From Chitinophagaceae bacterium (GTDB lineage Bacteria > Bacteroidota > Bacteroidia > Chitinophagales > Chitinophagaceae), in assembly GCA_017853575.1 (NCBI GenBank), contig JAFMJI010000014.1, positions 1-42,809 of the forward strand: a stretch of 42,809 bases of DNA. Direction: 5' to 3'. This document shows positions 451-42,099 of this stretch, one piece after another. The stretch's first letter is position 1. Every line of letters begins with the position of its first letter. The notes below the pieces were generated by a model, which saw nothing but the letters and a program-made list of their open reading frames with translations, made no database searches and was not told the origin of the DNA. A program made the position numbers and the translations under genes.

Positions 451-520
451 GTTATCTGTTGACGGTTGGCTGTTAACCGTTAACTGTATTATCTCGTCCC
501 TCGTCCCTTATCCCTCGTCC
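451..520. repeat. Composite heptamer array, family A then family C
   Basis: Ten consecutive 7-nt units in one register. Six are of the GTTGACN/GTTAACN kind (451-492) and four are CTCGTCC or CTTATCC (493-520). The array overlaps the 3' end of sufE, where it encodes the last residues and the stop codon. Confidence 0.85.
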
Positions 521-946
521 CTTTATCAAGTACACCCCCGCATCCATCTTCATTTGCTTGATCATAGCTCTGAGACCATTCGATCTTGTTTGTGCAAGAT
601 GTGAACTCAATCCAACTTTATCTATAAACTCCAATGGTGCATCGATAATTTCCTGCGGCGTATGTCCACTTAGAACCTGAATCATCAAACTCACCAGGCC
701 TTTTACTATAACTGCATCACTGTCTCCCTCAAAATAGACCCTGCCTTCTTTTTCAAAGGAATGAATCCATACACTGGATTGGCAACCTTTAATCTTGAAC
801 TCTTCTGTTTTATATTGATCATTGAGTTCAGGAAGTTTTTTCCCGATATCAATGATGTATTCATATTTCTGTTCCCATGTATCAAACAAAGAAAAGTCTT
901 CGATAATGGAGCGCTCAACAGATGATATGGTTGGATGTGATTCCAT
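473..946 (-). CDS. sufE: SufE cysteine desulfurase sulfur acceptor
   Basis: SufE accepts persulfide sulfur from SufS and passes it to the SufBCD scaffold. The protein has 157 residues with the acceptor cysteine Cys55 in KIKGCQSSVW, and the SufE/NifU-like core runs to about residue 140. Its ATG overlaps the sufS stop codon (TAATG), so the two are translationally coupled. The last 17 residues (IKGRGIRDEGRDNTVNG) are entirely encoded by the heptamer array at 473-525 and are not part of the family; Escherichia coli SufE has 138 residues. The tail is probably a tolerated, disordered extension. Confidence 0.92.
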   Translation of the reverse strand: MESHPTISSVERSIIEDFSLFDTWEQKYEYIIDIGKKLPELNDQYKTEEFKIKGCQSSVWIHSFEKEGRVYFEGDSDAVIVKGLVSLMIQVLSGHTPQEIIDAPLEFIDKVGLSSHLAQTRSNGLRAMIKQMKMDAGVYLIKGRGIRDEGRDNTVNG

Positions 947-2178
947 TATTTCAACATCTTGATAGCTTTGTTCAATGCTTCGATGAATATATCCACTTCT
1001 TCAATTGTGTTATATGCTGCGAATGAAGCCCGGGTGGTGCCTACAATTCCCAGACATTGCATCAATGGTTGCGCGCAATGATGACCTGTTCTTACAGCAA
1101 TCCCCTGATTGTCCAGCAAAATGGCAAGATCTTGCGGATGCACACCATCTATTGTAAATGATATTACGCTTACTTTAGGTTGGATGTCTCCAATTATATG
1201 CAGTCCTGGTATATCTTTTAATTTTGAAGTAGCATGTTCTAATAAAAGATCTTCGTGTTTTCTGATATTGGATTTTCCAACTCGGTTGATAAATTCAATG
1301 GCAGATTTCAACACAATGGCATCTGCAATATTGGGGGTGCCTGCTTCAAACTTGAAGGGCAACTCATTGTAAGTTGTCTTTTCAAATGTTACTTCTTTAA
1401 TCATCTCTCCACCACCTTGATATGGGGGCATGGACTCTAAAAGATGTTTTTTCCCATACAGGATTCCAATTCCTGTAGGACCATAAATTTTATGTCCTGA
1501 AAATGCAAAGAAGTCGCAATCCATTTTCTGTACATCAATATCCAGGTGCACTGAAGATTGCGCGCCATCAACCATTACCAAAGCTCCTTGCTGATGGGCG
1601 AGTGCAATAATTTCTTCAACAGGATTGATAACACCCAATGCATTGGAGGCATGTACAATGGAAACAAATTTTGTTTTTTTGGATAGCATTTTCTCAAATG
1701 CATTCATATCTAATTTTCCATTTCCATCAATTGGAATGACTTTAATGGATGCACCTTTTTTTTCTGCTATCATTTGCCAGGGAACAATATTGGCATGGTG
1801 TTCAAGTGAGCTGATGATAATTTCATCTCCCTCATTCAAAAATGCATTGCCCCAAGAGTTAGCAACCAGATTGATGCTTTCTGTAGTGCCTTTTGTGAAA
1901 ATAATTTCTTCGTGATGCTTTGCCTGAATAAATGATTGTACGACAGCACGAGATGCTTCAAAATCTGCAGTGGCCTCATCGGCTAGCGTATGAAGTCCGC
2001 GATGAATATTTGCGTTATAGTAAGAGTAGTAATGCGCAATTGCATCAATCACCTGTTTTGGTTTTTGAGAAGTTGCAGCATTGTCGAAATATACCAGTGT
2101 TTTTCCCTTGACTTTTCTTTCAAGTATGGGAAACTCAGACCTAATTGATTGTATGTCGTATGGTAGAGTAGACGACAT
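946..2178 (-). CDS. sufS: SufS group II cysteine desulfurase
   Basis: This PLP enzyme converts cysteine to alanine plus an enzyme-bound persulfide for Fe-S cluster assembly. At 410 residues it matches the family length. The PLP lysine is Lys230 in FSGHKIYGPTGIG and the persulfide cysteine is Cys368 in RTGHHCAQPLM, close to the E. coli positions (226 and 364). The N-terminal YFDNAATSQKP and the ASNALGVINP segments are typical. It starts 2 bases after sufD and overlaps sufE by one base, as expected for a tightly packed operon. Confidence 0.96.
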   Translation of the reverse strand: MSSTLPYDIQSIRSEFPILERKVKGKTLVYFDNAATSQKPKQVIDAIAHYYSYYNANIHRGLHTLADEATADFEASRAVVQSFIQAKHHEEIIFTKGTTESINLVANSWGNAFLNEGDEIIISSLEHHANIVPWQMIAEKKGASIKVIPIDGNGKLDMNAFEKMLSKKTKFVSIVHASNALGVINPVEEIIALAHQQGALVMVDGAQSSVHLDIDVQKMDCDFFAFSGHKIYGPTGIGILYGKKHLLESMPPYQGGGEMIKEVTFEKTTYNELPFKFEAGTPNIADAIVLKSAIEFINRVGKSNIRKHEDLLLEHATSKLKDIPGLHIIGDIQPKVSVISFTIDGVHPQDLAILLDNQGIAVRTGHHCAQPLMQCLGIVGTTRASFAAYNTIEEVDIFIEALNKAIKMLK

Positions 2179-2180
2179 AT

Positions 2181-3479
2181 TTATGCTTGAAAAGATAAAC
2201 GTTCTGAAATAAGTTGCTCAATGTAATTTTTGATGGCTTCATGCTCAATTTGTCCTAGAATATCACTTGCAAATGCTTGAAGCAACAATGCCTTTGCATT
2301 TTTTTCAGAAATGCCTCTTGCTCTCAAATAGAAGAGTGCATCTTCATCCAGCTTTCCAATGGTGCATCCATGTGAGCATTTCACATCATCTGCAAAAATT
2401 TCTAACTGTGGTTTTGTATTAGCAGATGCCTGGTCTCCAATTAGGATGTTTTTGTTGGATTGATATGCATTTGTTTTTTGTGAATCCTTGCGAACAAATA
2501 TTTTTCCATTGAATACCCCGGTCGATTGATCATCCATGATGCCTTTATACAATTCATTGCTTTCGCAATGCGGCATCCTGTTGTCAACAATTGTGTGGTT
2601 GTCGGCTATGGTATTTCCGTTGAGAAGATACAATCCATACATATGGCTTTCTGCATGTTCATCCTCCATTACCATGTTTAAATTGTTTCTAACAATGGCG
2701 CCATCCAAAGTTATCGTTACCGCATGTGTATTTGATCTTTCAAGCTGACGAACATGGGTTGTTCCAGTATGATTGGAATGCTTTCCCTCGTTTTGAAGTT
2801 TAATGTATCTGGTGATAGAATCTCTTCCTGTACATATTTCAATTACTTCATTTGTAAAACTTTCGCCACCTCCAATGTTGATATAAGTCTCTACAATTGT
2901 TATCTGAGCATTTGCTTCAATGGAAGCAAGTATTCTTGGTTGAGAAAACCTGAATCCATTGCTGCTGTCAGAAAAATGATAGATGATCAAGGGTTGTAAT
3001 AGGCTTTTACCTTTTTTTAATTTTATGAAGGCACCTCCGGAGGCAAATGCTCCGTTTAGGGCATTCACACCATCAGGATGATAAGCCTGGCTATGTCCTA
3101 AATGTTCTTCAACAAAAAGTGCATCTTCATCTCCAGCTGCAGTCTCAAGCGATTTTACAACCAATGCATCTTTTTCATGGATGATAGAATGATCGGCTTG
3201 AAATCGTCCATTGAAAAAAACAATGGTATTAGCCTCTTCGGTACCAGGTAAGATTGATTTTTTGATGATCGTATCTTCAAGATTGGATGACTCAATTGCT
3301 ATATTCATTTCATCCTTAAATATATTCTTGACAGGAATATATTTCCATTCTTCATGTTTCAACGCAGGTATTCCCATGCCGGAAAAAGTTTTCCAATTTT
3401 CCGTTTGGAAAGAAGCAAGATGGGTTGAATTACCTTCTTGCTGCGAATATGCTGTTTTCAAATTGCTTTTCACATCCAT
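2181..3479 (-). CDS. sufD: SufD subunit of the SufBCD Fe-S scaffold
   Basis: SufD pairs with SufB to form the scaffold on which SufC dimerises; it supports iron entry and cluster assembly. The protein has 432 residues. The SufB/D beta-helix core lies in the middle and the C-terminal block contains CSHGCTIGKLDEDALFYL, with the His that is important in SufD. An all-helical N-terminal region (about 1-100) precedes the core. It lies 12 bases after sufC and 2 before sufS. It is distinguished from SufB by the shorter length, the sequence and the operon order. Confidence 0.93.
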   Translation of the reverse strand: MDVKSNLKTAYSQQEGNSTHLASFQTENWKTFSGMGIPALKHEEWKYIPVKNIFKDEMNIAIESSNLEDTIIKKSILPGTEEANTIVFFNGRFQADHSIIHEKDALVVKSLETAAGDEDALFVEEHLGHSQAYHPDGVNALNGAFASGGAFIKLKKGKSLLQPLIIYHFSDSSNGFRFSQPRILASIEANAQITIVETYINIGGGESFTNEVIEICTGRDSITRYIKLQNEGKHSNHTGTTHVRQLERSNTHAVTITLDGAIVRNNLNMVMEDEHAESHMYGLYLLNGNTIADNHTIVDNRMPHCESNELYKGIMDDQSTGVFNGKIFVRKDSQKTNAYQSNKNILIGDQASANTKPQLEIFADDVKCSHGCTIGKLDEDALFYLRARGISEKNAKALLLQAFASDILGQIEHEAIKNYIEQLISERLSFQA

Positions 3480-3491
3480 CTATCCAGTATT

Positions 3492-4253: not shown

Positions 4254-4276
4254 ATATATGAATTGATATTTTAAAA

Positions 4277-8196: not shown

Positions 8197-8200
8197 ATGC

Positions 8201-9679: not shown

Positions 9680-9704
9680 CTATTTATTTATATTTACAAA
9701 TGCA

Positions 9705-9767
9705 GTTGACTGTTGACGGTTAACAGTTAACAGTCAACCCAAAACTCAAAACCCAAAACGCACAACA
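9705..9767. repeat. Composite heptamer array, family A then family E
   Basis: Nine consecutive 7-nt units in one register. Five are family A (9705-9739: GTTGAC, GTTAAC and GTCAAC types) and four are CAAAACN or CACAACA units (9740-9767). The array ends three bases before the xylA ATG, so it occupies the position where a ribosome binding site would be. Confidence 0.88.
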
Positions 9768-9770
9768 CAC

Positions 9771-16025: not shown

Positions 16026-16043
16026 TGAGTAAAACACTCCAAA

Positions 16044-16077
16044 TAAAAAAAGGCTCTGCATTTGCAGAGCCTTTTTT
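16044..16077. terminator. Bidirectional rho-independent terminator
   Basis: A stem GGCTCTGC / GCAGAGCC with a 4-nt loop is flanked by an A run on the left and a T run on the right, so it can act on both strands. It separates the convergent susD gene and the oxidoreductase gene on the minus strand. Confidence 0.92.
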
Positions 16078-16091
16078 GTTTCTATTATGTT

Positions 16092-17144: not shown

Positions 17145-17152
17145 TTTAAAAA

Positions 17153-17385
17153 GTTCTAAGTTGTAGGTTATAAGTTCTAAGTTGTAATTGTTGTAATGGT
17201 TGTAATGGTTATCGGGTTGTCATTGATGTCAGCCTGTTGTCAGTTCTTTGTCGGTTCGTTGTCGGTTTTTTTCAGCGTATTATAGTTACAATTTAACAAT
17301 TATAACAACTACAACAACTATAACAATTACAACAATGACAACCCGACAACCATTACTACTTACAACCTACAACTTACAACTATGT
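17153..17385. repeat. Large composite repeat, family B heptamers plus 9-nt units
   Basis: Between the oxidoreductase and dapD start codons, 17153-17187 holds five family B heptamers (GTTCTAA, GTTGTAG, GTTATAA). These are followed by 9-nt units of the type TGGTTGTAA, then an 11-nt periodic stretch around 17235-17270. The right half holds complementary units. Bases 17203-17225 and 17333-17355 are inverted copies with one mismatch. No gene is seen in this stretch; the open frame that runs through it into dapD is repeat-derived. Confidence 0.85.
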
Positions 17386-18231: not shown

Positions 18232-18273
18232 GTTGACTGTTAACTGTTAACTGTTAACAGTCAACAGTCAACT
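18232..18273. repeat. Family A heptamer array between dapD and cca
   Basis: Six 7-nt units in one register move from GTTGACN through GTTAACN to GTCAACN, so the array is a near-palindrome. It starts 4 bases after the dapD stop and ends 3 bases before the cca promoter box. Confidence 0.9.
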
Positions 18274-18288: not shown

Positions 18289-19734
18289 ATGAATATCACT
18301 TTCACTAAAGAGGAAATTGAAATCATTTCCAATGTCGCAAAAGCATCATCTTCATTGAAGATGGAAGCCTTTGTTGTAGGAGGTTTTGTTCGTGATAAAA
18401 TCTTACTTAGGAATTGTAAGGATATCGATATTGTTTGTCTGGGTGATGCAAATAGTTTGGCAGAGGGACTTGCAAGTCAATATTCATTTGGTCCGAAGGT
18501 TTCATGGTTTAAAAACTATGGAACAGCGCATGTAAGAATTGGTGATTACGATGTTGAATTCGTAGGCGCGAGAAAAGAAAGCTATCTACAGCATTCCCGG
18601 AATCCTATCGTAGAATTAGGAACGCTTCAAGATGATCAGGAGCGAAGAGACTTTACCATCAATGCATTGGCTTTTTCTGTTGACAGTTTACGGTTAACAG
18701 TTAACAGTCAACTGTCAGCCGTCAATTTAATTGACCCCTTCAACGGCATCGAAGATCTTCAAAAGGGAATCATCAAAACACCGCTGTCACCTGAAAAAAC
18801 TTTTTCTGATGATCCTCTTCGCATGATGCGTGCCATTCGATTTGCATCTCAGCTCAACTTTACCATTGATGTAAATACATTATCTGGGATTGCAGATACT
18901 GCGCATAGAATTGATATCATATCTCAAGAGAGAATAACAGATGAATTGAATAAGATCTTGATGTCGGAGAAACCCTCAATAGGACTTGACTTATTGTATA
19001 AAACAGGCTTATTAAAATTAATTTTTCCTGCTTTGGTTGATTTGTCTGGAGCAGAATATATCGATGGGAAAGGGCATAAAGACAATTTCTATCATACACT
19101 ACAAGTGTTGGATAACATTTGTCCTCATACCAACAACCTTTGGCTGAGATGGGCGGCTCTATTACATGATATTGCAAAGCCAGCTACCAAGCGCTTTGAA
19201 AATGAGGTGGGATGGACCTTTCATGGACACGAAGTGGTAGGAGGAAGAATGGTCCCCAAGATTTTTTCAAAATTAAAGCTGCCTACCCAGGAAAATATGC
19301 GCTATGTGCGTAAGCTTGTTGAACTGCATCTTCGTCCAATAAGTTTGACAAAAGAAAACATAACCGACTCCGCGATTAGGCGATTGCTATTTGATGCTTC
19401 AGACGATCTGGAAGATCTGATGACACTTTGTGAGGCAGACATCACATCAAAAAATGAAGCAAAGGTTAAACGCTTTCGATCCAACTTCGAATTGGTGCGT
19501 CAGCGATTAAAGGAAGTTGAAGAGAAAGATAAAATTCGAAACTGGCAGCCACCCATCACTGGTGAACTCATCATGCAAAAATTCAATTTGCAACCATGCA
19601 GAGAAGTAGGCATTATAAAAACCGCCATCAGAGAAGCTATTCTGGATGGTGTAATTGAGAACAGTTATCAAGCCGCTTATCAACTTATGTTAGCAGAAGC
19701 GAAAAAATTAGGTATGAAACCAGTTGACAGTTGA
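18289..19734 (+). CDS. cca: CCA tRNA nucleotidyltransferase / poly(A) polymerase family with HD domain
   Basis: Class II nucleotidyltransferase predicted to add or repair the CCA end of tRNAs. The 481-residue protein has FVVGGFVRDKIL (about 28-39), the catalytic DIDIV (46-50), and DFTINALAF (121-129). The RNA and SrmB-binding part includes DDPLRMMRAIRFASQL, and an HD domain carries LLHDIAKPATKR. Residues 131-146 (VDSLRLTVNSQLSAVN) are a translated heptamer array inserted in frame before LIDPFNG. The stop codon lies in a further array at 19723, so the last residues (PVDS) are also repeat-derived. The convergent neighbour is miaA. Confidence 0.92.
   Translation: MNITFTKEEIEIISNVAKASSSLKMEAFVVGGFVRDKILLRNCKDIDIVCLGDANSLAEGLASQYSFGPKVSWFKNYGTAHVRIGDYDVEFVGARKESYLQHSRNPIVELGTLQDDQERRDFTINALAFSVDSLRLTVNSQLSAVNLIDPFNGIEDLQKGIIKTPLSPEKTFSDDPLRMMRAIRFASQLNFTIDVNTLSGIADTAHRIDIISQERITDELNKILMSEKPSIGLDLLYKTGLLKLIFPALVDLSGAEYIDGKGHKDNFYHTLQVLDNICPHTNNLWLRWAALLHDIAKPATKRFENEVGWTFHGHEVVGGRMVPKIFSKLKLPTQENMRYVRKLVELHLRPISLTKENITDSAIRRLLFDASDDLEDLMTLCEADITSKNEAKVKRFRSNFELVRQRLKEVEEKDKIRNWQPPITGELIMQKFNLQPCREVGIIKTAIREAILDGVIENSYQAAYQLMLAEAKKLGMKPVDS
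18679..18727. repeat. Family A heptamer array inside the cca coding region
   Basis: Seven 7-nt units in one register (GTTGACA first, GTCAATT last) lie within cca and are translated without a stop. It has the same palindromic order of unit types as the intergenic arrays. Confidence 0.9.
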
Positions 19735-19764
19735 CTGTTAACAGTTAACTGTCAACCGTCAACT
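19723..19764. repeat. Family A heptamer array between cca and miaA 3' ends
   Basis: Six 7-nt units run through the cca stop codon and end one base before the miaA stop codon on the other strand. The palindromic order could form a hairpin acting on both convergent transcripts. Confidence 0.88.
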
Positions 19765-19765
19765 G

Positions 19766-20698
19766 CTATCTCCAAACCCTCTTAAACCACGTAATCTGCC
19801 TCTTCGCATAATTTCTGGTATGTTGTTTGATCTTTTCAATCGCTTCTTCTTGCGTGCATTTCCCATCAAAATAATCGAAGAATTCTTTGTATCCCACAGT
19901 TTGCAATGCAGGTAAATCTTTGTACGAAAACAACGATCGTACTTCATCTTCCAATCCATCCTCTATCATCTTATCAACTCTTTTGTTGATTCTTTCATAG
20001 AGTTCTTCTCGGGGGAGGTCTAGTATTTTGTAGGTGAAAGTAATCGTTGAATCGTTGTAATTGTTGTAATGGTTGTAGTTGTTGTCAATGTATTCACCCT
20101 TGTTCCTCGTCCCTTGTTCCTCGTCCCTTGTTCCTCGTCCCTTGTCTCTCTCTCTATTATGATATTCATAAATTGAAGAACCAGTAAACATCACCACTTC
20201 CAGCGCCCGCATCATGCGTTGTGGATTGTTGATATCGCCGTGATCAGGAAAAGTTGGATCGAGGTTGATGAGCTCATGTCTCAACACATCAATTCCTTTT
20301 TCCTTGTATATCTGAATCACTCGCTCTCTGATTTCATTAGGAATAGTAGGGATATTGTCGAGTCCTTCTACCAGTGCTTTTATATATAAACCTGTTCCAC
20401 CGCATACAATTGCTTTGTCTGAGTTTTGAAAAATTTCATCTAAATATCCTCTTGCTTCTTTTGCAAATGTTGCTGCTGAAATATTTTCTGTGATGGAATG
20501 ATTTGCAATAAAGTAATGCTTGACTTCATGAATCTCTTCTTCTGAAGGTCGCGCTACTCCAATATTTAATTCCTTGTAACATTGCCTTGAATCTGCAGAA
20601 ATGATGGATGTATTATATTCCTTTGCCAGCCGAATGGCTTCAGCAGTTTTTCCAACAGCTGTTGGGCCTGCAACAATGATGCATTCTTTTTGTGTCAT
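19766..20698 (-). CDS. miaA: tRNA dimethylallyltransferase
   Basis: MiaA transfers a dimethylallyl group to A37 of tRNAs that read codons beginning with U. The 310-residue protein has the P-loop GPTAVGKT (11-18), SADSRQCYKELNIGVARP (34-51) and the C-terminal HTRNYAKRQITWFKR. Residues from about 183 to 217 are foreign to the family: GRGTRDEEQGTRNKG comes from a family C heptamer array and DNNYNHYNNYND from 9-nt units. The insert falls in the variable linker before LPREELYERI. The C-terminus stops soon after TWFKR and directly meets the array at 19764, so a few usual C-terminal residues may be lost. Confidence 0.93.
   Translation of the reverse strand: MTQKECIIVAGPTAVGKTAEAIRLAKEYNTSIISADSRQCYKELNIGVARPSEEEIHEVKHYFIANHSITENISAATFAKEARGYLDEIFQNSDKAIVCGGTGLYIKALVEGLDNIPTIPNEIRERVIQIYKEKGIDVLRHELINLDPTFPDHGDINNPQRMMRALEVVMFTGSSIYEYHNRERDKGRGTRDEEQGTRNKGEYIDNNYNHYNNYNDSTITFTYKILDLPREELYERINKRVDKMIEDGLEDEVRSLFSYKDLPALQTVGYKEFFDYFDGKCTQEEAIEKIKQHTRNYAKRQITWFKRVWR
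20051..20147. repeat. Composite repeat inside the miaA coding region
   Basis: On the plus strand, 20099-20147 is seven 7-nt units alternating CTTGTTC and CTCGTCC (family C), and about 20051-20090 is four 9-nt units of the GTTGTAATG kind. Both are translated within miaA; three heptamers give a 7-residue period in the protein. Confidence 0.88.
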
Positions 20699-20737
20699 GC
20701 GATTGGCAGCTTATGGAGAACTGCAACCGATTGCTAT

Positions 20738-22878: not shown

Positions 22879-22883
22879 GTAAG

Positions 22884-22994
22884 GTTGTAAGTTATAGGTT
22901 GTAGGTCGTTGTAATTGTTCTAGTTGTTTTCGGTTGTTGTAATTGTCATTAGACAACTTATAACTAACAACTTACAACTACTACAACAATTATA
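22884..22994. repeat. Family B heptamers with 9-nt units, inverted pair
   Basis: Left arm 22884-22904 holds three units (GTTGTAA, GTTATAG, GTTGTAG) and the right arm from 22957 holds complementary units (CTTATAA, CTAACAA, CTTACAA). Between them lie 9-nt units of the TTGTTGTAA kind. It fills the gap between the lipoprotein gene and the barrel protein gene. Confidence 0.82.
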
Positions 22995-23006
22995 ACGGCT
23001 GTTTGG

Positions 23007-28049: not shown

Positions 28050-28132
28050 GTTGTAGGTTATAAGTTGTAAGTTTTAAGTCATAAGTTATGCATATGGCTG
28101 CTTACTTACAACCTATAACCTAAAACTTACAA
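28050..28132. repeat. Family B heptamer arrays, inverted pair
   Basis: Left arm 28050-28091 is six 7-nt units (GTTGTAG, GTTATAA, GTTGTAA kinds). Right arm 28105-28132 is four complementary units (CTTACAA, CCTATAA, CCTAAAA). A 13-base spacer separates them. The pair sits between lpd and rpmB. Confidence 0.88.
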
Positions 28133-28147
28133 CTACGAACAATAAAA

Positions 28148-28810: not shown

Positions 28811-28830
28811 ATGCATTTGAATTCAATGTC

Positions 28831-28873
28831 AAAAGCTGTTCCGTATAACTTTTCGGGACAGCTTTTGTTTTAA
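28831..28873 (+). terminator. Rho-independent terminator after the L28-L33 operon
   Basis: A 13-bp stem (28831-28843 with 28854-28866, one G-U pair) with a 10-nt loop is followed by TTTTGTTTT. It starts 20 bases after the DUF4295 stop and ends just before ftsY. Confidence 0.85.
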
Positions 28874-28884
28874 TAGCAATATCT

Positions 28885-29841
28885 ATGGGATTTTTTGATA
28901 AGCTATTTGGGAAAAAAGAAAAAGAACAACTTGAAAAGGGTTTGGAGAAAACCCGCGAGGGATTTTTTTCAAAAATCACCAAGGCTATTGCAGGAAAATC
29001 ACAGGTAGATGAAGAAGTGCTGGATCAACTGGAAGAAGCATTGATTACAGCAGATGTAGGTGTTGATACAACCGTTCAAATCATCGAAAAAATCGAAGCA
29101 CGTGTTGCAAGAGATAAATACATGAGCACCGACGAGCTTCATCAAATGCTCAAAGATGAGATTCGTAACATCCTGGTAGAAGATGAAAAGGACACACTCA
29201 AGAAATTCGAACTTCCTGAAAATAAAAAACCATTTGTCATTCTTGTTGTAGGCGTGAATGGTGTTGGAAAAACAACAACCATTGGTAAGCTTGCCATGAA
29301 TTTCAAAAATGCTGGTAAATCTGTTTTGTTGGGCGCTGCAGATACGTTTCGTGCTGCAGCTGTCGATCAGCTGACCATCTGGAGTGAACGCGCTGGTGTG
29401 CCTATTGTAAAAAAAGAAATGGGTTCAGATCCTGCATCTGTTGCTTTTGATACGGTTAATAGTGCTGTTGCAAAAGGAGCGGATATTGTGTTGATTGATA
29501 CAGCTGGACGTTTGCATAATAAAGCTCACCTCATGGAAGAGCTGAGCAAAATCAAACGTGTGATTCAAAAAGTGATTCCTGATGCTCCACATGAAACCTT
29601 GTTGGTGTTGGATGGAACAACCGGACAAAATGCTATTGAGCAGGCAAAACATTTCTCAGCAGCAACAGATGTTTCTGCATTGGCCATTACAAAACTGGAT
29701 GGTACTGCTAAAGGCGGTATTGTTCTTGCGATATCCAATCAATTCAATATCCCAGTCAAATTCATCGGCGTCGGCGAAAAAGCGGAAGATTTGATGGTAT
29801 TTGATCGTAAGGAGTTTGTGGATTCGTTGTTAAAATTCTAG
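28885..29841 (+). CDS. ftsY: FtsY signal recognition particle receptor
   Basis: SRP GTPase receptor that delivers ribosome-nascent chains to the Sec translocon at the inner membrane. The 318-residue protein has a short charged N-terminus without the long acidic A domain of E. coli, then the N domain, then the G domain: GVNGVGKT (123-130), DTFRAAAVDQL, DTAGRLHNKAHLMEEL and TKLDGTAKGG. It starts 12 bases after a terminator, so it probably has its own promoter. Confidence 0.96.
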   Translation: MGFFDKLFGKKEKEQLEKGLEKTREGFFSKITKAIAGKSQVDEEVLDQLEEALITADVGVDTTVQIIEKIEARVARDKYMSTDELHQMLKDEIRNILVEDEKDTLKKFELPENKKPFVILVVGVNGVGKTTTIGKLAMNFKNAGKSVLLGAADTFRAAAVDQLTIWSERAGVPIVKKEMGSDPASVAFDTVNSAVAKGADIVLIDTAGRLHNKAHLMEELSKIKRVIQKVIPDAPHETLLVLDGTTGQNAIEQAKHFSAATDVSALAITKLDGTAKGGIVLAISNQFNIPVKFIGVGEKAEDLMVFDRKEFVDSLLKF

Positions 29842-29925
29842 TTCTAAGTTCTAGGTTGTAGGTTGTAAGTTATTTTGAAAATCAGCTTCACCAACAACTT
29901 ACAACTTATAACTTACAACTTATAA
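29841..29925. repeat. Family B heptamer arrays, inverted pair
   Basis: Left arm 29841-29875 is five 7-nt units and right arm 29898-29925 is four complementary units (CTTACAA and CTTATAA alternating). The left arm starts at the ftsY stop codon and the right arm ends three bases before the rimO ATG. Confidence 0.88.
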
Positions 29926-29928
29926 AGC

Positions 29929-31236
29929 ATGCGTTCTAAAAAGCAAAATAAGGTTAATATCATCACCCTCGGCTGTAGTAAAAACATGGTCGATAGTGAA
30001 GTCATGAGCGGTCAACTCGCGGCGAATGACTTTGATGTGGTGCATGAAAATGCAAAGCTTGATCACAATATTGTGATTGTAAATACATGTGGATTCATCG
30101 ATAAGGCAAAAGAAGAGAGCATCAATACCATTTTAGATCAAGTTGATCTCAAGAAAAAAGGTAAACTTGATAAAGTATACGTTACAGGTTGCTTAAGTGA
30201 GCGGTATAAAAATAATCTTGAAGAAGAAATTCCAGAAGTAGATGCATTTTTCGGCACCATGGAGCTCCCAAGATTACTTTCAACTTTGAACGCAGATTAT
30301 AAAGCTGAATTGGTCGGAGAGAGGCTGCTGAGTACGCCTTCTCATTATGCTTACATGAAAATCAGTGAGGGGTGTAATAGAACATGTTCTTTTTGCGCTA
30401 TTCCACTCATGCGTGGCGAACATCGCAGCAAATCGATGGAAGAATTGATCAGTGAAGCAGAGCGCCTGGTGAAAATGGGAGTGAAAGAGATCATGCTGAT
30501 TGCACAGGAACTTACTTACTACGGGTTGGATCTTTATAAAAAGAGAATGCTTCCCGAGCTGCTGAAATCACTTGCAAAAGTTGAGGGAATTGAATGGATT
30601 CGGTTGCATTATGCCTATCCCTCAAAATTTCCACTCGAAATCATCGATGTGATGAAGAAAGAGCCGAAAATTTGCAACTACTTAGACATGCCGCTTCAGC
30701 ATGCGAGCGATAGAATGCTTAAAGCAATGAAGCGTCAGATTTCCCAACAGGAATTGAAAGATCTTATTGCAGAGATCCGTTCCCGCATTCCAGGCATTTG
30801 CCTGAGAACAACATTGATTGCTGGTTTTCCCGGAGAAACGGAAGAGGATGTTGAAGAGTTGAAGAAGTTCCTTGAAGAAATGCAGTTTGATAGAGTAGGA
30901 GTATTCACCTATTCTCATGAAGAAGATACTTCTGCATATGATTTTAAGGATGAGTTGACACAAGAAGAGAAAGAAGCAAGAGCTCAGGATATCATTGCTT
31001 TTCAGCAGGACATCAGCTTTGAAAAAAATCAACAGAAAATTGGACAAACATTGAAGGTACTTATTGACAAGAAAGAGGCTGGAAGATATATTGGAAGAAC
31101 AGAATTTGATAGTGTGGAAGTCGATAACGAAGTGATTGTTCATTCAAAAAAAGCACTCAAACCCGGCGATTTTGTGATGGTCAACATAACAAAGGCGTAT
31201 GATTATGATTTGGAAGGAGAGGTAGTTGAGTTGTAA
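29929..31236 (+). CDS. rimO: Ribosomal protein S12 methylthiotransferase RimO
   Basis: Radical-SAM enzyme that methylthiolates an aspartate of ribosomal protein S12. The 435-residue protein has the N-terminal UPF0004 domain with Cys16, Cys54 and Cys88 for one cluster, the radical-SAM CxxxCxxC (Cys149, Cys153, Cys156 in GCNRTCSFCAIP) and a C-terminal TRAM domain. The wording DMPLQHASDRMLKAMKR and YPSKFPLEIIDVM distinguishes RimO from MiaB. Its stop codon TAA lies inside the first heptamer of the following array. Confidence 0.94.
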   Translation: MRSKKQNKVNIITLGCSKNMVDSEVMSGQLAANDFDVVHENAKLDHNIVIVNTCGFIDKAKEESINTILDQVDLKKKGKLDKVYVTGCLSERYKNNLEEEIPEVDAFFGTMELPRLLSTLNADYKAELVGERLLSTPSHYAYMKISEGCNRTCSFCAIPLMRGEHRSKSMEELISEAERLVKMGVKEIMLIAQELTYYGLDLYKKRMLPELLKSLAKVEGIEWIRLHYAYPSKFPLEIIDVMKKEPKICNYLDMPLQHASDRMLKAMKRQISQQELKDLIAEIRSRIPGICLRTTLIAGFPGETEEDVEELKKFLEEMQFDRVGVFTYSHEEDTSAYDFKDELTQEEKEARAQDIIAFQQDISFEKNQQKIGQTLKVLIDKKEAGRYIGRTEFDSVEVDNEVIVHSKKALKPGDFVMVNITKAYDYDLEGEVVEL

Positions 31237-31348
31237 GTTATAGGTTGTAAGTTATAAGACATGAGGAAAGTTGGAATTTAATGTTTGATTTTTTGAAATA
31301 AATTGGCTGTTAACCTACAACCTAAAACTTACAACTTAGAACTTATAA
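31230..31348. repeat. Family B heptamer arrays, inverted pair
   Basis: Left arm 31230-31257 is four 7-nt units (GTTGTAA, GTTATAG kinds) and contains the rimO stop. Right arm 31314-31348 is five complementary units. The 56-base spacer is unrelated sequence. The arms lie between rimO and bshC. Confidence 0.88.
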
Positions 31349-32974: not shown

Positions 32975-32981
32975 AGATGGC

Positions 32982-32989: not shown

Positions 32990-32996
32990 TGCATAC

Positions 32997-35476: not shown

Positions 35477-35478
35477 AA

Positions 35479-36213
35479 TCAATAAGCCCCTTGTCCCTCG
35501 TCCCTTGTCCCTGCCTGACCGGCAGGCAGGCCTCCTCCCTCTAGAATAGCAGCCGTCGCTGTTGCACCTATCCTGGTTGCTCCTGCATCAATAGCCGCAA
35601 GCATGTCTTTAAGATTACGAATGCCCCCTGCAGCTTTTATTTGAACATGAGGAGCAGAATGTTTACGCATCAATATTATATCATCAATCGTTGCTCCTTT
35701 GGTTTGAAATGTCCCATCAGTTAGTTTTACATACCCATAACCAGTGGAAGTCTTTACGAAATCAACATTCAATTCTGAACATATTTCACAAAGTTTGATT
35801 TTATATGAAGTTTCCAGATAATCGTTTTCAAAAATTACTTTTAGTATGGTGCCGTTAGCATGACAAACATCCAACACTGCTTTGATATCAGCTGTAACAT
35901 ACTCCCAGTCACCGCCCAATACTTTACCAACATTCACCACCATGTCTATTTCAGTTGCACCCAGTTGAATACATTCCAATGTTTCTGCAACCTTGATCGA
36001 AGTGGTATTGCTGCCTTGAGGAAATCCAATCACTGTACAAACGTCTACACCAGTGCTTTTCAGTACTTCAGCTGCACGTTTTATGGCATAAGGCTTGATG
36101 CAAACTGTAGCAGTCTGATATTGAATCGCCACCTGCAATCCTTCCTCCAAATCCTTGTCAGTCATGGTAGGGTGGAGAAGTGAGTGGTCGATGTATTTGT
36201 TGAGAGGTTTCAT
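35479..36213 (-). CDS. deoC: Deoxyribose-phosphate aldolase
   Basis: DeoC cleaves 2-deoxyribose 5-phosphate to acetaldehyde and glyceraldehyde 3-phosphate. The TIM-barrel protein of 244 residues has catalytic Asp90 (ATEIDMV), Schiff-base Lys154 (DFVKTSTG) and Lys193 (KAAGG). The native sequence ends at about residue 227; the last 17 residues (LPAGQAGTRDEGQGAY and neighbours) are translated from a family D palindrome and a family C heptamer array. Normal bacterial DeoC of this type is about 220 residues, which fits. Confidence 0.93.
   Translation of the reverse strand: MKPLNKYIDHSLLHPTMTDKDLEEGLQVAIQYQTATVCIKPYAIKRAAEVLKSTGVDVCTVIGFPQGSNTTSIKVAETLECIQLGATEIDMVVNVGKVLGGDWEYVTADIKAVLDVCHANGTILKVIFENDYLETSYKIKLCEICSELNVDFVKTSTGYGYVKLTDGTFQTKGATIDDIILMRKHSAPHVQIKAAGGIRNLKDMLAAIDAGATRIGATATAAILEGGGLPAGQAGTRDEGQGAY
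35490..35531. repeat. Family C heptamers joined to a family D palindrome
   Basis: 35490-35510 is three 7-nt units (CTTGTCC, CTCGTCC, CTTGTCC) and 35510-35530 is a CCTGCCTG / CAGGCAGG inverted repeat with a 5-nt centre. The whole block is inside the deoC 3' end and is translated. Confidence 0.85.
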
Positions 36214-36228
36214 TTTTAAATATTCAAA

Positions 36229-36349
36229 GTTGTAAGTTGTAGGTTATAAGTTATAAGATAACAGCCAATGTTCTGGGTCTTATCTGATAAGTGTTTTAAT
36301 ACAACCAAGTAATACTTATAACCTATAACTTAAAACTTACAACTTATTG
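36229..36349. repeat. Family B heptamer arrays, inverted pair
   Basis: Left arm 36229-36256 is four 7-nt units, right arm 36315-36349 is five (the last, CTTATTG, includes the purE stop codon on the minus strand). A 58-base unrelated spacer lies between them. Confidence 0.87.
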
Positions 36350-36886: not shown

Positions 36887-36889
36887 TGT

Positions 36890-38023: not shown

Positions 38024-38045
38024 GTTGCCTAATACGTTTATTCAA

Positions 38046-38101
38046 GTTGACAGTTGACGGTTGACTGTTAACCGTTAACTGTCAACCGTCAACTGTTGAC
38101 A
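38046..38101. repeat. Family A heptamer array between purK and the L,D-transpeptidase gene
   Basis: Eight 7-nt units in one register: GTTGAC type, GTTAAC type, GTCAAC type, and one final GTTGACA. It lies between the divergent purK and transpeptidase starts. Confidence 0.9.
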
Positions 38102-38158
38102 AAATTAACCAAACCCCGCCTCAAATCCATTAATTTTACGAAATCATAGGTTTTGGAT

Positions 38159-38923
38159 ATGTCAGCTCAAATTAAATCGGTTCTGTTGTTATTTTCATGG
38201 ATGATCATCACTGATCTTGCCCATGCACAAAACTCCTTTGTTGATTATCAAAAGTCCTTCAGCAGAGTAGCCAAGGCGTTTAATAATTGTGAGGATCACT
38301 TAAAAAATCAGTTTACAGAAAAAGGATTGGAATGGCCTGTAAAACAGCTGTATATCAGGTCGTTTAAGTACAACAGTGAATTGCAGGTTTGGGTGAAGAA
38401 TAGCAATTCAGATACATTTAGTCATTTCAAAAGCTATAAAATTTGTGCGTTAGCAGGAACCATGGGACCAAAAAGGATGGAGGGAGATTATCAGGTTCCG
38501 GAAGGTTTTTATTATATCAATGAATTTAATGCAAACAGTACCTATCATTTATCATTGGGATTGAATTATCCCAATCCATCAGATAAATTATTATCAGATG
38601 CGATGCGTCCGGGAGGTGAAATTTATATTCATGGAAGCTGTGTAACAGTAGGGTGCATTCCGTTAACAGATCCGATGATTGAAGAGTTGTATGTGCTCTC
38701 CACATTTGCTAAAGCAGCTGGACAACATTTTATTCCAGTACATATATTTTCTGTAAAGTATGATGATAAAAAAAGCATTGAATATTTAGAACCATTGCTT
38801 GAAAAGGATGAATCTTTCAAAGAATTTGAACATAAGCTGAAAAAAGTATACGATTTCTTTAATCACAATAAAAAGCTTCCAGTCGTTGCAGTTCTACCCA
38901 ACGGCGAGTATACTTTCTATTAA
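38159..38923 (+). CDS. YafK/YkuD-like L,D-transpeptidase-fold protein
   Basis: A 254-residue secreted protein: signal peptide to about residue 24 (ending AHA) and a YkuD-type domain. The catalytic block reads IHGSCVTVGCIPLTD (His158, Cys166). The IHG...C-V-x-V-G-C-x-x-x-T-D form matches YafK/DpaA rather than classical transpeptidases (S-H-G-C-V-R). YafK-type proteins act on peptidoglycan links. I chose the ATG at 38159; the frame extends two codons to a TTG. The stop is followed at once by a heptamer array. Confidence 0.87.
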   Translation: MSAQIKSVLLLFSWMIITDLAHAQNSFVDYQKSFSRVAKAFNNCEDHLKNQFTEKGLEWPVKQLYIRSFKYNSELQVWVKNSNSDTFSHFKSYKICALAGTMGPKRMEGDYQVPEGFYYINEFNANSTYHLSLGLNYPNPSDKLLSDAMRPGGEIYIHGSCVTVGCIPLTDPMIEELYVLSTFAKAAGQHFIPVHIFSVKYDDKKSIEYLEPLLEKDESFKEFEHKLKKVYDFFNHNKKLPVVAVLPNGEYTFY

Positions 38924-38958
38924 CTTATAACTTACAACTTATAACTTACAACTTCTAA
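38924..38958. repeat. Family B heptamer array overlapping the ABC gene start
   Basis: Five 7-nt units (CTTATAA, CTTACAA, CTTATAA, CTTACAA, CTTCTAA) begin one base after the preceding stop codon. The last A of the last unit is the A of the ABC gene ATG. No left arm is present, so it is a half-site. Confidence 0.88.
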
Positions 38959-39707: not shown

Positions 39708-39712
39708 CAGCA

Positions 39713-39761
39713 GTTAACGGTTGACAGTTGGCTGTTAACTGTTAACCGTCAACTGTCAAAT
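39713..39761. repeat. Family A heptamer array after the ABC gene
   Basis: Seven 7-nt units in one register, from GTTAACG through GTTAAC-type to GTCAACT and GTCAAAT. It starts 6 bases after the ABC stop. Confidence 0.87.
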
Positions 39762-40038
39762 TCAACTGAAGTTTTTTACATCAAATGCCCCCATCCTTGT
39801 TGGTTTTTTAAACTTATCTGTCTCCCTATCTGGCGTTAGCAGTATCGAATTAATTAATACATCTCTTCTTGATATATTTTTTCAACCTCTCCGTCTGCTC
39901 ACTGCCTTTGGCAGTTCACATCCACCTCTCCTATCCATTCGCCTTCGGCTCATGGCAGGAGAGGAAACTTGGTTTGATTAATTGAAAAAGCTTATATATT
40001 ATGATTATTTTGAATTGATTTAAAATAACTAGCACTCT
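39762..40038. other. Non-coding stretch with hairpins
   Basis: No credible gene is seen here. The stretch contains several hairpins: CTGCC-TTT-GGCAG near 39903-39915, a CTCTCCT / AGGAGAG pair at 39926-39932 and 39957-39963 with GCC-TTC-GGC in its loop, and the outer inverted repeat copy at 39878-39893. It belongs to the structured left flank of the DUF559 gene. Confidence 0.7.
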
Positions 40039-40470
40039 TCAAAACTCCCCTCCTGGATCAGGAGGGGTGGATCCAGACATCCCGACAGAGTCGGGATTGT
40101 CTGGAGACGGGGTGGTAGAGTAATAAAATTTTAAAATCATTTCAATTATATAATTCAAATCCTCAAAAACCAATCTATTTTCAAATCTCAGAACTTGAAT
40201 ATTTTTTGATTTTAAATAAGCAGTTTTTCTTTCATCTCTTTTCATTCCTTGCTCCCAATAATGATCTTGACCGTCTAGCTCTATGCAAAGCTTAATAGCT
40301 GGGCAATAAAAGTCAAGTATAAAATTGCCAACACTGTGTTGTCTCCTGAATTTTAATCCTGCAACTTTTTTATTACATAAACTTTTCCATAAAGTTGCTT
40401 CAGCAGAAGTGCCAAATGTTCTCAATCTCTTCCTTCTCTCTTCAAAATATTTTTTGTTATGAAAATGCAT
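40039..40470 (-). CDS. DUF559 (Vsr-like) endonuclease-fold protein
   Basis: A 143-residue protein with the DUF559 domain, related to very-short-patch repair endonucleases of the restriction-endonuclease-like fold. The core runs from FGTSAEATLWKSL through KFRRQHSVGNFILDFYCP to IKLCIELDGQDHY, DERKTAYL and VLRFEN; the D in LDFYC and the E in CIELDG are the likely catalytic acidic pair. The last 27 residues (STTPSPDNPDSVGMSGS and on) are translated from the left inverted repeat, and the stop codon lies at its edge. Function of the family is unproven. The gene is flanked by inverted repeats on both sides. Confidence 0.82.
   Translation of the reverse strand: MHFHNKKYFEERRKRLRTFGTSAEATLWKSLCNKKVAGLKFRRQHSVGNFILDFYCPAIKLCIELDGQDHYWEQGMKRDERKTAYLKSKNIQVLRFENRLVFEDLNYIIEMILKFYYSTTPSPDNPDSVGMSGSTPPDPGGEF
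40041..40119. repeat. Left inverted repeat of the DUF559 cassette
   Basis: Contains CCCCTCCTGGATCAGGAGGG (start of a 24-bp near-palindrome, 40047-40070), a CCCGAC / GTCGGG hairpin at about 40081-40094, and GGGGTGGTAGA at 40109-40119. All but the middle hairpin have exact inverted copies at 40534-40642. Confidence 0.85.
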
Positions 40471-40533
40471 GATGCATTTTATTTAAAAAAGGTAGTTGGC
40501 TAATGTTTATTTGCACAGTTATAAATGTTTATT

Positions 40534-40642
40534 TCTACCACCCCGGCCTCTCCGCCAAGGCGGATCGGCCACCCCTCCTGATCCAGGAGGGGAATTGTTA
40601 TTTGTGCGGAGAGGTTGAAAAACTATCCAGGAGGGGAGTTTT
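40534..40642. repeat. Right inverted repeat of the DUF559 cassette
   Basis: Carries, in order, the inverted copy of GGGGTGGTAGA (40534-40544), a CCGCC-AA-GGCGG palindrome (40552-40563), the 24-bp copy (40569-40592), the 16-bp outer copy (40607-40622) and the 17-bp copy (40626-40642). It ends 26 bases before the FKBP gene ATG. Confidence 0.85.
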
Positions 40643-40656
40643 TGGAGCTAAAACTT

Positions 40657-40664
40657 TATCTTTA
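40657..40664 (+). promoter_or_regulatory. Putative promoter -7 box of the FKBP gene
   Basis: TATCTTTA lies 4 bases before the ATG at 40669. The -33 position falls inside the right inverted repeat of the DUF559 cassette, with no clear TTTG at normal spacing. Confidence 0.4.
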
Positions 40665-40668
40665 CTCT

Positions 40669-41400
40669 ATGAAAAAAATTACATTTTTAGCACTTGTTTT
40701 GGCCAATGTTTTATTGACAAACGCACAAAATAAACCAGCAGCAAAGCCTGTTGGTAAGCCTACCACAAATCCGCCAGTGGCAGCAGCTAAAACTGCTCCG
40801 GTTTTGAAAAACTCACTTGATTCCATGAGCTATGCCATCGGATTGTTGGATGGAAATTTTTTCAAATCTCAGGGCATTAAAAATGTGAATCCATCTGTTT
40901 TGGCCAAAGGGTTTAATGATGCACTTGGAGGAACCCCGTTGATGACTCCTGAGCAAGCTGATCAATGCGTAAGAAAAGAAATGCAAAAACAAGCTCAAGA
41001 GAAAATTAAACCAACTATACTCGAAGGAGAAAAATTCTTATTGGCCAATGCAAATAAGGCTGGTGTAAAAACAACTGCAAGTGGGTTGCAATACGAAGTA
41101 CTTCAGGAAGGAACTGGCGCAAAACCCAAAGACACCAATACGGTGAAAGTACATTATGAGGGATACTTATTGAATGGTAAAAAATTTGATAGCTCTAAAG
41201 ATCGTGGACAACCCGCTGAATTTCCATTGAATCAAGTGATTCGCGGCTGGACAGAAGGAGTGCAATTGATGAGTGTTGGCTCAAAGTATAAGTTTTACAT
41301 CCCTTATCAATTGGGGTATGGTGAAATGGGATCAGGCGAAGCCATCCCCGGCGGATCGGTGTTGATTTTTGAAGTAGAGCTTCTTGATATCGTAAAATAG
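40669..41400 (+). CDS. FKBP-type peptidyl-prolyl isomerase, exported
   Basis: A periplasmic or surface prolyl isomerase of the FkpA/Mip kind. I chose the ATG at 40669 (243 residues), which gives a signal peptide MKKITFLALVLANVLLTNAQ; the frame opens earlier inside the cassette repeat. Order: a Pro/Ala-rich linker, the FKBP N-terminal dimer domain (DSMSYAIGLLDGNFFKSQGI), a helix, then the catalytic FKBP domain from about 140 with VKVHYEGYLLNGKKFDSS, VIRGWTEGVQLMSVG and GYGEMGSGEAIPGGSVL. Helps fold envelope proteins. Confidence 0.93.
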   Translation: MKKITFLALVLANVLLTNAQNKPAAKPVGKPTTNPPVAAAKTAPVLKNSLDSMSYAIGLLDGNFFKSQGIKNVNPSVLAKGFNDALGGTPLMTPEQADQCVRKEMQKQAQEKIKPTILEGEKFLLANANKAGVKTTASGLQYEVLQEGTGAKPKDTNTVKVHYEGYLLNGKKFDSSKDRGQPAEFPLNQVIRGWTEGVQLMSVGSKYKFYIPYQLGYGEMGSGEAIPGGSVLIFEVELLDIVK

Positions 41401-41409
41401 ATGTAACTG

Positions 41410-41494
41410 GTTATAAGTTCTAAGTTGTAGGTTGTAAGTTAAATACAGATTACCTACAACTTAAAATTTATAACTTGCAACTTATAACTTACAA
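41410..41494. repeat. Family B heptamer arrays, inverted pair
   Basis: Left arm 41410-41444 is five 7-nt units (GTTATAA, GTTCTAA, GTTGTAG kinds) and right arm 41453-41494 is six complementary units. The right arm ends 14 bases before the next ATG. The 8-base spacer makes it a compact hairpin. Confidence 0.88.
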
Positions 41495-41508
41495 CAATTA
41501 CAACCCTC

Positions 41509-42033
41509 ATGACAGATATCAAATACCCCATCGGAAGAGTAGAAATCGTAGCATACAGTGAAAAAGTAAAGGACGATAGCATGGCAGATATTCTTTTCCT
41601 GCCACGCATGCTAGAATATGCTGTGCTTAATTTAAATGAAGATCAATTGCATACACCTTATAGAGAAGGTGGATGGTCGTCCAATCAGATCATTCATCAC
41701 CTAGCAGATTCTCATATGAATGCATTTATTCGATTTAAATTAGGACTCACAGAAGATCATCCCACCATCAAGCCATACGATCAAAACAAATGGGCAGAAA
41801 CAGTAGATGTAAAAAATACTGCGGTGAATATTTCAATAACCCTCTTGCACTCATTGCACCACCGCTGGTATGAATTGCTGAAAACCCTTACAGAAGCTGA
41901 TTTCAAGAGAACTGTTTATCATCCAGAACAAGAACGTGATATTCCATTGTGGAATTTCTTGTTGATCTATGCATGGCATGGTAAACATCATGCAACGCAG
42001 ATCACTCAGTTGAGGGAGAGGATGGGATGGTAA
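41509..42033 (+). CDS. YfiT/DinB-family putative bacillithiol transferase
   Basis: A 174-residue four-helix DinB-fold protein with the triad of metal-binding histidines in IIHHLADSH and WHGKHHATQI. The start TDIKYPIGR and the GGWSSNQIIHHLADSH block are typical of YfiT/BstA-like proteins, which conjugate bacillithiol to electrophiles or are annotated as metal-dependent hydrolases. The presence of bshC at 31376 makes the thiol-transferase reading more likely. Confidence 0.85.
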   Translation: MTDIKYPIGRVEIVAYSEKVKDDSMADILFLPRMLEYAVLNLNEDQLHTPYREGGWSSNQIIHHLADSHMNAFIRFKLGLTEDHPTIKPYDQNKWAETVDVKNTAVNISITLLHSLHHRWYELLKTLTEADFKRTVYHPEQERDIPLWNFLLIYAWHGKHHATQITQLRERMGW

Positions 42034-42043
42034 AGAAGTAAAA

Positions 42044-42099
42044 GTTTTGAATTTTGAGTTATGGGTTTCGGGTTAACTGTTAACAGTTAACGGTTAACA
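42044..42099. repeat. Composite heptamer array, family E then family A
   Basis: Eight 7-nt units in one register: GTTTTGA, ATTTTGA, GTTATGG, GTTTCGG, then four GTTAACN units. It starts 10 bases after the preceding stop and ends 10 bases before the murB ATG. The E-to-A change mirrors the A-to-E change at 9705-9767. Confidence 0.88.

Follow-up and report, generated by a model that had tools for sequence, protein, structure and literature searches.

Facing heptanucleotide arrays with a common polarity and changing unit families in a Chitinophagaceae genome

Arrays and genes of the window

The DNA analysed here, referred to as the window, is a stretch of 42,809 nucleotides (nt) that forms the complete contig C29 of a Chitinophagaceae genome (G000; 2.317 Mb, 40 contigs, 99.6% complete), and the subject of this analysis is a set of tandem arrays of 7-nt units found at 18 sites within it. 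Many of these arrays consist of two facing arms with the G-rich strand first, the gaps that hold them stay occupied in related species while their units are exchanged, and they are concentrated regionally, a combination that tentatively points to a process linked to DNA synthesis and not to the spread of a single element. The genes beside the arrays are ordinary ones, namely those for SufE, SufB/D, a TonB receptor and its SusD-like partner, dapD, the CCA-adding enzyme, miaA, ribosomal L28, a DeoC-family aldolase and a radical-SAM enzyme, and neither tRNA genes nor Rfam matches at gathering scores were found in the window. The closest named records of the CCA-adding enzyme (best 80) belong to metagenome genomes labelled Bacteroidetes or Chitinophagaceae, and record names among these relatives, such as Erken and Loclat, presumably refer to lakes. 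In what follows G000 is the source genome, G013, G022 and G024 are three close relatives, other G numbers are further genomes and L numbers are fetched loci.

The units were grouped as family A (GTTNTAR), B (GTTRACN), C (CCCTYGT/AGGGACR), D (the 9-nt GTTGTNNTN type) and E (GTTTTGN/NCAAAAC). Self-match segments at lag 7 with a score of at least 14 numbered 12 in the window versus a mean of 0 over five dinucleotide shuffles; at other lags between 4 and 21 there were three at lag 9, one at lag 11, five at lag 14, one each at lags 18 and 21, and none at the remaining lags. Tandem Repeats Finder placed a row of period 7 or 14 at or beside 17 of the 18 sites, with none at 39713. With gene limits and start codons set by hand from the list of open reading frames (ORFs), 15 of the 22 intergenic gaps with a length of 29 nt or more held a lag-7 array unmatched by 200 mononucleotide shuffles (p=0.005, the floor of the test) and 7 did not; the remaining three sites lie inside ORFs, at 18679 (CCA-adding enzyme), 20099 (miaA) and 35490 (3' end of the DeoC-family ORF), which gives 18 in all. 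The arrays thus hold head-to-tail 7-nt units beyond chance, the property by which short tandemly repeated repetitive (STRR) sequences and long simple sequence repeats (LSSR) are recognised.

The original prediction, made from the letters of the window, had spoken of about 18 repeat blocks in 42.8 kb, likened them to STRR heptamers and proposed autocorrelation at lag 7 as a check. All 18 sites do hold arrays in 7-nt phase, of which the shuffles had none, the autocorrelation agrees, and the likeness to STRR stands. Its strict 7-nt step holds as a constant step with changing units, with three stretches of period 9 (17181-17210, 17288-17342 and 20040-20085, by Tandem Repeats Finder) departing from it. 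Its four sequence families survive as several unit families that are not independent, because arrays change family without losing the 7-nt phase, as read at 9705-9768, L164 and L176.

At 17151-17381 family A arms (GTTNTAR ... YTANAAC) surround facing arms of 9-nt period and fill the divergent gap before dapD, and at 22884-22997, in the gap 22879-23006, they likewise enclose a 9-nt-type interior. Convergent family A arms lie at 28050-28133, upstream of the ribosomal L28 gene (28200-28436); at 29840-29925, where they occupy the whole gap from stop codon to start codon; at 31229-31345, where the stop codon of the upstream ORF falls within the first unit; at 36227-36347, with 90% complementarity over 31 nt; and at 41409-41499. 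A lone family A arm (minus strand; C-rich on the plus strand) fills a 34-nt gap at 38921-38957.

Family B forms palindromes at 9703-9768 (gap 9680-9770), where it runs in register into CAAAACN units; at 18232-18272, between dapD and the CCA-adding enzyme gene, at one end of the gene that is inverted in G022 and G024; at 19721-19765, in the convergent gap between the CCA-adding enzyme gene and miaA; at 38045-38100, in a divergent gap; and at 39711-39759, in a convergent gap. Units that by eye resemble GTTTTGN precede a short family B palindrome at 42046-42100. At 451-523, family B (GTTRACN, 451-488) is followed by family C (CTCGTCC, 490-523) in the 3' end of the SufE ORF (473-946, minus strand). 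A composite of this kind, with a family B palindrome, then TATT or a similar sequence, then C-type units, recurs in L062 (1930-2015), L163 (minus strand) and L222 (at about 1534); the window site at 451-523 has orthologous copies in L047 and L051, and the L062 site has them in L218 and L219.

Arrays within coding sequences

The family B array at 18679-18727 (plus strand) lies in frame within the CCA-adding enzyme ORF and falls in a loop that differs in length from relative to relative; it is common to the source genome and its three close relatives. The unit whose canonical form would put TGA or TAA in frame is altered, reading GTTTAC or GTATAC in all four species. In miaA, arrays of 9-nt period and of family C (CCCTTGTTCCTCGT) at 20040-20145 (minus strand) supply about 30 extra loop residues from D and C units, the mixture of which differs among the four species, and the loop is shorter in the other relatives among the 28 of 120 rows listed. 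Family C arrays also extend into the tails of the SufE ORF and of the DeoC-family ORF (35479-36213, minus strand; array at 35488-35512, minus strand, at its 3' end), past the domains. Canonical C units are free of stop codons on both strands. Every A unit has TAA or TAG on its G-rich strand, and A arrays in the window touch only the ends of ORFs, with start codons as set by hand.

The orientation of the CCA-adding enzyme gene relative to dapD is opposite in G000 and G013 versus G022 and G024. Both ends of this gene carry B arrays in G000 and G013, and in G022 and G024 there is a B array at one end and a C-type hairpin at the other; the gene could conceivably have been inverted by recombination between arrays. 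The tandem order of miaA followed by the CCA-adding enzyme gene is seen in other members of the genus too (L014, L016 and others). Upstream of miaA, 33 nt within 20699-20737 are identical in the four species, against a divergence of about 20% elsewhere. A different, GC-rich inverted repeat (39960-40614) flanks a DUF559 gene (40039-40470), whose 3' end by our reading enters the repeat; an exact 19-mer of this repeat was absent from the 269 fetched loci.

Orientation of the arms

An inverted second arm of at least 18 nt was present at 11 of the 18 sites, and 21 of the 25 window inverted repeats listed (28 were found) are arrays. In family A a GTTNTAR arm is followed by its reverse complement, family B forms a near-continuous palindrome, and family C pairs in other parts of the genome have arms about 100-120 nt apart. 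These facing arms, with the G-rich strand first, are the main structural rule of the arrays, and the original prediction overlooked it. Counted over the whole genome from the full lists of matches, pairs within 200 nt were G-first in 13 cases and C-first in none for family A (97 hits), and G-first in 4 and C-first in none for family C (GGGACR, 28 hits); motif-defined family A pairs in the window and 40 stretches of G000 gave 16 and 0.

The same polarity was seen across species and units. Among 54 array hairpins taken from G000 and its three close relatives, from further members of the genus and from named relatives, 50 were G-rich-first, 2 were C-rich-first and 2 were ties. A second detector, applied to largely overlapping DNA, returned 39 G-first, 0 C-first and 0 ties for 7-nt arrays versus 22, 15 and 4 for other hairpins. 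About 15 unit vocabularies, by our own grouping, follow the rule; it is broken by a family B array of G009 (L179) and by an AACGCTT-type hairpin of L086. As a hairpin reads alike on both strands, the rule amounts to a G-rich strand that runs 5' to 3' into the gap from either gene edge. Of 47 hairpins, 32 have a G-rich 5' arm that, taken alone, pairs with itself more strongly than the 3' arm does, and in 14 it does so less strongly, which lends weak support to re-priming on the G-rich strand. Units of 8 nt were observed in some Chitinophagaceae (L134 and L135, and also L123-L125), with facing arms in L134 and L135.

Arrays in orthologous gaps of related species

A comparison of orthologous gaps between close strains had been proposed as a further check, and was made here between species. 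Long matches between G024 and the window show 75-79% identity. Every one of the 8 array gaps that could be aligned there has a lag-7 array, and none of the 5 alignable array-free gaps has one (one-sided Fisher 1/1287, by our own arithmetic). Of the array-free five, two combine shortness with strong conservation and one has a terminator-like hairpin, so that these may be closed to arrays for other reasons. By reading, the unit family has been replaced in 6 of the 8 array gaps: family A of G000 is family B in G024 at gaps 22879, 28047, 29842, 36214 and 38924, and family B has given way to a C-like array at 38024. The lag-7 score was reached in 3 of 5 array gaps of G022 and in 3 of 3 of G013, and array-free gaps were free of arrays in 2 of 2 and 3 of 3, respectively.

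Outside the window, site C15:320809 carries family B in G000 and G022, family A in G013 and no array at the place compared in G024, one of two contigs of that genome that match there (the other is C181), and empty states thus exist. Both the number of units and their family vary from species to species at about 72-84% identity of long matches, the comparison being one of species and not of strains of one species. Other Chitinophagaceae carry heptamer vocabularies of their own, according to a survey in which some loci overlap (several genomes occur twice) and one run of N is included. The orthologous gaps thus keep their arrays while the unit family changes, and this, together with the separate vocabularies of relatives, bears out the earlier suggestion of a process as opposed to the dispersal of one repeat.

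Regional density and taxonomic distribution

Merged arrays numbered 17 in the 42.8-kb window versus 7 in 400 kb sampled elsewhere (twenty 20-kb stretches from five other contigs, not picked for matches, contigs partly picked for having matches being left out). With automatic ORF calls, 10 of 15 gaps of at least 40 nt were occupied in the window versus 6 of 132 elsewhere, and 30 of the family A hits of the genome fall in the window contig, which makes up 1.8% of it. The "window-wide" system originally proposed stands as far as its 18 sites are concerned, and is better described as a regional concentration within a genome where arrays are unevenly spread.

In relatives, where contigs consisting of N only were dropped from the density counts (1 in G036 and 3 in G024), the region around the CCA-adding enzyme gene held 7 arrays in 17.5 kb versus 1 in 65.1 kb elsewhere in G036, and 2 in 9.1 kb versus 1 in 45.3 kb elsewhere in G027, both on small numbers and with other units than those of G000. 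Of 20 stretches of one 543-kb contig of G016, those at 27-47 and 60-80 kb, the latter holding the CCA-adding enzyme gene, contained 5 of the 6 arrays detected, with a detector that overlooks short arrays (a family B match at G016:C1:916 was not among its six). The G024 density sample gave 0 arrays in about 12.4 kb. Twenty non-redundant stretches of the genus (317.9 kb), mostly picked around the CCA-adding enzyme gene and thus within the dense region, yielded 28 lag-7 segments, as against one at lag 8 and two at lag 9; twenty further stretches (337.5 kb), taken from the order's other families, yielded six lag-7 segments, one at lag 6 and two at lag 15. The exact family B pattern was found in 9 of 60 genomes including G000, all within the genus, with a reversed control pattern giving 5 matches per strand in G023 and 0 in the other genomes. 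G031 has 66 family B matches, equal to G000, yet no lag-7 segment scoring at least 14 in its stretch around the CCA-adding enzyme gene.

The replication terminus as a cause of the dense region is not supported by the strand bias, which keeps its sign in G016 and is strong in C4 and C37, two of the array-rich contigs of the source genome (C29, C3, C4, C8 and C37). The strand bias of the window itself is weak (0.034). One locus of the source genome, L165 (G000:C9:1-5938), has 65% GC versus about 38% for the genome and is possibly foreign or misbinned.

Relation to known repeats

Cyanobacterial STRR heptamers are intergenic 7-nt tandem units of variable copy number, usually in one direction per array. 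The arrays described here share the intergenic 7-nt tandems and differ by their facing arms. Repetitive extragenic palindromic (REP) sequences and bacterial interspersed mosaic elements (BIME) are numerous short extragenic palindromes with a fixed core sequence and a REP-associated tyrosine transposase (RAYT) of the Y1 type as partner; the arrays resemble them as short, mostly extragenic palindromes of which there are many, but a fixed core and a Y1 transposase partner were not found here. Rickettsia palindromic elements are in-frame palindromic repeats of one dispersed sequence family in protein genes, whereas here the unit is a 7-nt tandem that differs between species. Integron attC sites have 7-nt GTTRRRY and RYYYAAC cores, the order and unit of which differ from those of the arrays.

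Convergent G-rich heptamers are known from Xanthomonas, where GGGAATC units form 70 and 75 convergent pairs in two strains, are mostly intergenic at gene edges, and vary widely in length and sequence between the same genes of the two strains, according to the parts available of that study (Rehm et al. 2015, PMC4692102), which also mention only few paired repeats in Nostoc. The arrays described here resemble them as heptamers that are mostly intergenic, sit likewise at gene edges and occur in facing pairs with the G-rich strand first (here 13:0 and 4:0). While Xanthomonas, as far as the accessible text goes, has one G-rich unit capable of forming quadruplexes, several vocabularies with in-register switches and replacement at orthologous gaps are found here, and runs of at least three G occur only in family C (GGGACR) and not in canonical GTTNTAR or GTTRACN, the quadruplex potential being read from the sequence.

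Within the Bacteroidetes, sets of TAACTGA heptamers have been described in five genomes, with other heptamers in the same intergenic regions (MacGregor 2015, PMC4679880, available in part). Those repeats too are intergenic heptamers beside other heptamers, and a gap that has the repeat in one genome can be without it in relatives; in the portions of that paper at hand they appear as direct repeats built from a single unit, apart from one indirect repeat in the main genome, and neither a polarity rule nor a family swap is described. TAACTGA was not among the units read here (GTTRACN, GTTNTAR, CCCTYGT), although no search was aimed at it. The side-by-side heptamers in the consulted portions of PMC4679880 qualify the earlier remark that no description of mixed-family heptamer arrays in Bacteroidota was known. 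Some of the most abundant bacterial satellite families appear, from the section seen of another study, to derive from heptamers and hexamers (PMC6749651). Our literature search, thin on subscription papers, found no title or opening of an abstract that mentions vocabulary replacement at orthologous gaps or a polarity rule across units. Heptamer arrays are thus already known in cyanobacteria, Beggiatoaceae and a few Bacteroidetes, with convergent G-rich ones in Xanthomonas, and what is new is the mixed vocabularies, the common polarity rule and the turnover at fixed sites.

Origin of the arrays

The arms of an array match each other no better than arms drawn from other arrays of the same family. 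With arms defined by motif, the own-arm match was 0.684 versus 0.721 for permuted arms in family A (16 pairs; 4688 of 5000 permutations at or above) and 0.807 versus 0.822 in family B (20 arrays; 4362 of 5000 at or above), which argues against selection for the hairpin and also against ongoing correction of one arm by the other. A first test, biased because arms were picked by best match, had given 0 of 5000 permutations reaching the own-arm mean for B (11 hairpins), 225 of 5000 for A (12) and 864 of 5000 for C (3). The effect disappeared for A and B once arms were set by motif alone, and arm-to-arm correction by quasi-palindrome copying was accordingly rejected. A few hairpins match perfectly over 23-32 nt, and an original copying event is conceivable.

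We tentatively propose, with a probability of about 0.38, that the arrays are made and renewed by an accident of DNA synthesis at G-strand 3' ends, linked to forks or breaks and followed by slippage, and are not spread as one element. The polarity, the independence of the arms, the fixed sites with unit turnover, the clustering and the absence of PF00078 and PF01797 from the source genome and its three close relatives fit synthesis at such ends, and since the G-rich strand points inward on both arms, a break or stalled end within the gap would leave a G-rich 3' end exposed on either side. We infer that a gap holding an array is a fragile or stall-prone place, where a 3' end may slip or re-prime by one heptamer on neighbouring or nearby repeats, so that the G-strand lengthens. 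The ends would then rejoin through short matches, for which GTTRAC and TTRTAA units are suited by being self-complementary given G.T pairs. Such rejoining could re-create facing arms, admit a new vocabulary and seed nearby gaps, and the dense region would in this way persist across species. The arrays would mostly be tolerated by-products, kept in frame and stop-free in coding loops.

Several observations weigh against this proposal. A hairpin score of 14 was reached by only 43 of 123 arrays versus 24 of 492 random regions, with none of the 7 arrays of the order's other families and 9 of the 28 of named relatives reaching it, and facing arms are thus not universal. Perfect arm matches occur in some hairpins (23/23 nt in L056 and 32/32 nt in L184), and the independence of the arms is also in keeping with a one-time copy followed by fast unit turnover; shuffling of unit order placed 0 of 37 hairpins at p<0.05, with a mean match of 18.7 versus 16.3 when shuffled, for arms picked for best match. 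The difference in self-pairing between arms is modest (mean -5.1 versus -4.3 kcal/mol) and small or mixed in family C. In G023 the dense region is weak, with 3 arrays in 20 kb versus 4 in 41.4 kb (1.5 versus 0.97 per 10 kb), and in G022 the gaps at 29842 and 31237 fall below the lag-7 score, with 9-nt-type repeats seen there by eye. Eight of the twenty genus stretches around the CCA-adding enzyme gene have no segment at lags 4-15, and those of G004 and G031 have only a lag-9 and only a lag-14 segment, respectively; as stretches lack lag-7 segments, the dense region is not universal. An enzyme for array synthesis was not identified, and the array changes seen are all between species.

The arrays could instead be ordinary heptanucleotide microsatellites that slip at any tolerated site, with inverted arms incidental or due to rare template switching. 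The 7-nt step is dominant in the window and the genus stretches, 80 of the 123 arrays fall below hairpin score 14, and heptanucleotides are cited as the most abundant class of long repeats in many genomes, with slippage proposed as the cause (Mrazek 2007, as cited in the available parts of PMC4679880 and PMC4692102). Plain slippage, however, gives neither facing arms of fixed polarity, as in the 13:0 and 4:0 of the whole genome, nor regional concentration in several species with different units, and we regard it as somewhat unlikely. Because only 43 of 123 arrays reach the hairpin score, we nevertheless raised our estimate for plain slippage slightly and lowered that for synthesis at G-strand ends. 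The original alternatives of slippage or a dedicated copying process are thus retained as a process with a 7-nt step, while no gene for a dedicated copying enzyme was found, PF00078 and PF01797 being the families tested.

Selection of RNA or DNA hairpins, as intercistronic stabilisers or bidirectional terminators whose sequence is free while the hairpin persists, would account for the 8 of 8 gaps that stay occupied in G024 while 6 change family. The 11 of 15 array gaps that lie between genes on the same strand would suit it too, but 4 of 7 array-free gaps lie that way as well. Arm covariation was not seen, as the two arms of a pair match each other no better than they match arms from elsewhere in the family; array-free gaps at 16026-16091 and 28812-28884 hold, by reading, ordinary hairpins with T-runs; and arrays also lie in divergent gaps and ORFs, one gap is single-armed and one site is empty in G024. 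Most sampled gaps elsewhere in the genome have no array (6 of 132 occupied), and selection of this kind appears unlikely.

A non-autonomous palindromic mobile element, like REP sequences or a miniature inverted-repeat transposable element (MITE), or entering genes in frame as Rickettsia palindromic elements do, is favoured by the many dispersed palindromic copies, some of them in frame in genes, and by the B-beside-C composite at several sites. By reading, however, the families lack common ends or a common core and the copies vary in unit number and order; different families at one site are not expected of random insertion, and a target duplication was not recognised by eye in the single filled and empty comparison, at C15:320809. 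The Y1 transposase family PF01797 was not found in G000, G013, G022 and G024, but was present in 21 of 38 genomes searched, including the array-bearing G027, G031 and G036, so that a Y1 enzyme is conceivable for some genus members. A mobile element as the origin of the arrays is improbable.

It is more doubtful still that telomere-like end-healing without a recognised reverse transcriptase adds species-specific heptamers at fragile intergenic sites, in which case a two-arm array would be the scar left where two healed ends met head to head, and its vocabulary would reflect a template or founder sequence that changes. A reverse transcriptase or telomerase-like enzyme copying a short RNA template onto 3' ends, to which G-rich 3' ends on both sides (as in a head-to-head joint of telomere-like ends) and the GTTAGGG-like units of G036 (L021) would be congenial, is very improbable, as PF00078 reverse transcriptases were not found in G000, G013, G022, G024, G023, G027, G031 and G036 and are present in 5 of the 38 genomes searched; a divergent enzyme outside the reach of PF00078 would have to be assumed.

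Heptanucleotide repeats have been noted in scattered bacterial taxa, and their mechanism is not established. A polarity that holds across units, and fixed sites with a changing vocabulary, place strict and testable demands on any mechanism. If a process linked to breaks or forks is the true one, these gaps would be natural records of genome breakage and rejoining, and the same process would account for insertions that keep the frame, as in MiaA and the CCA-adding enzyme.

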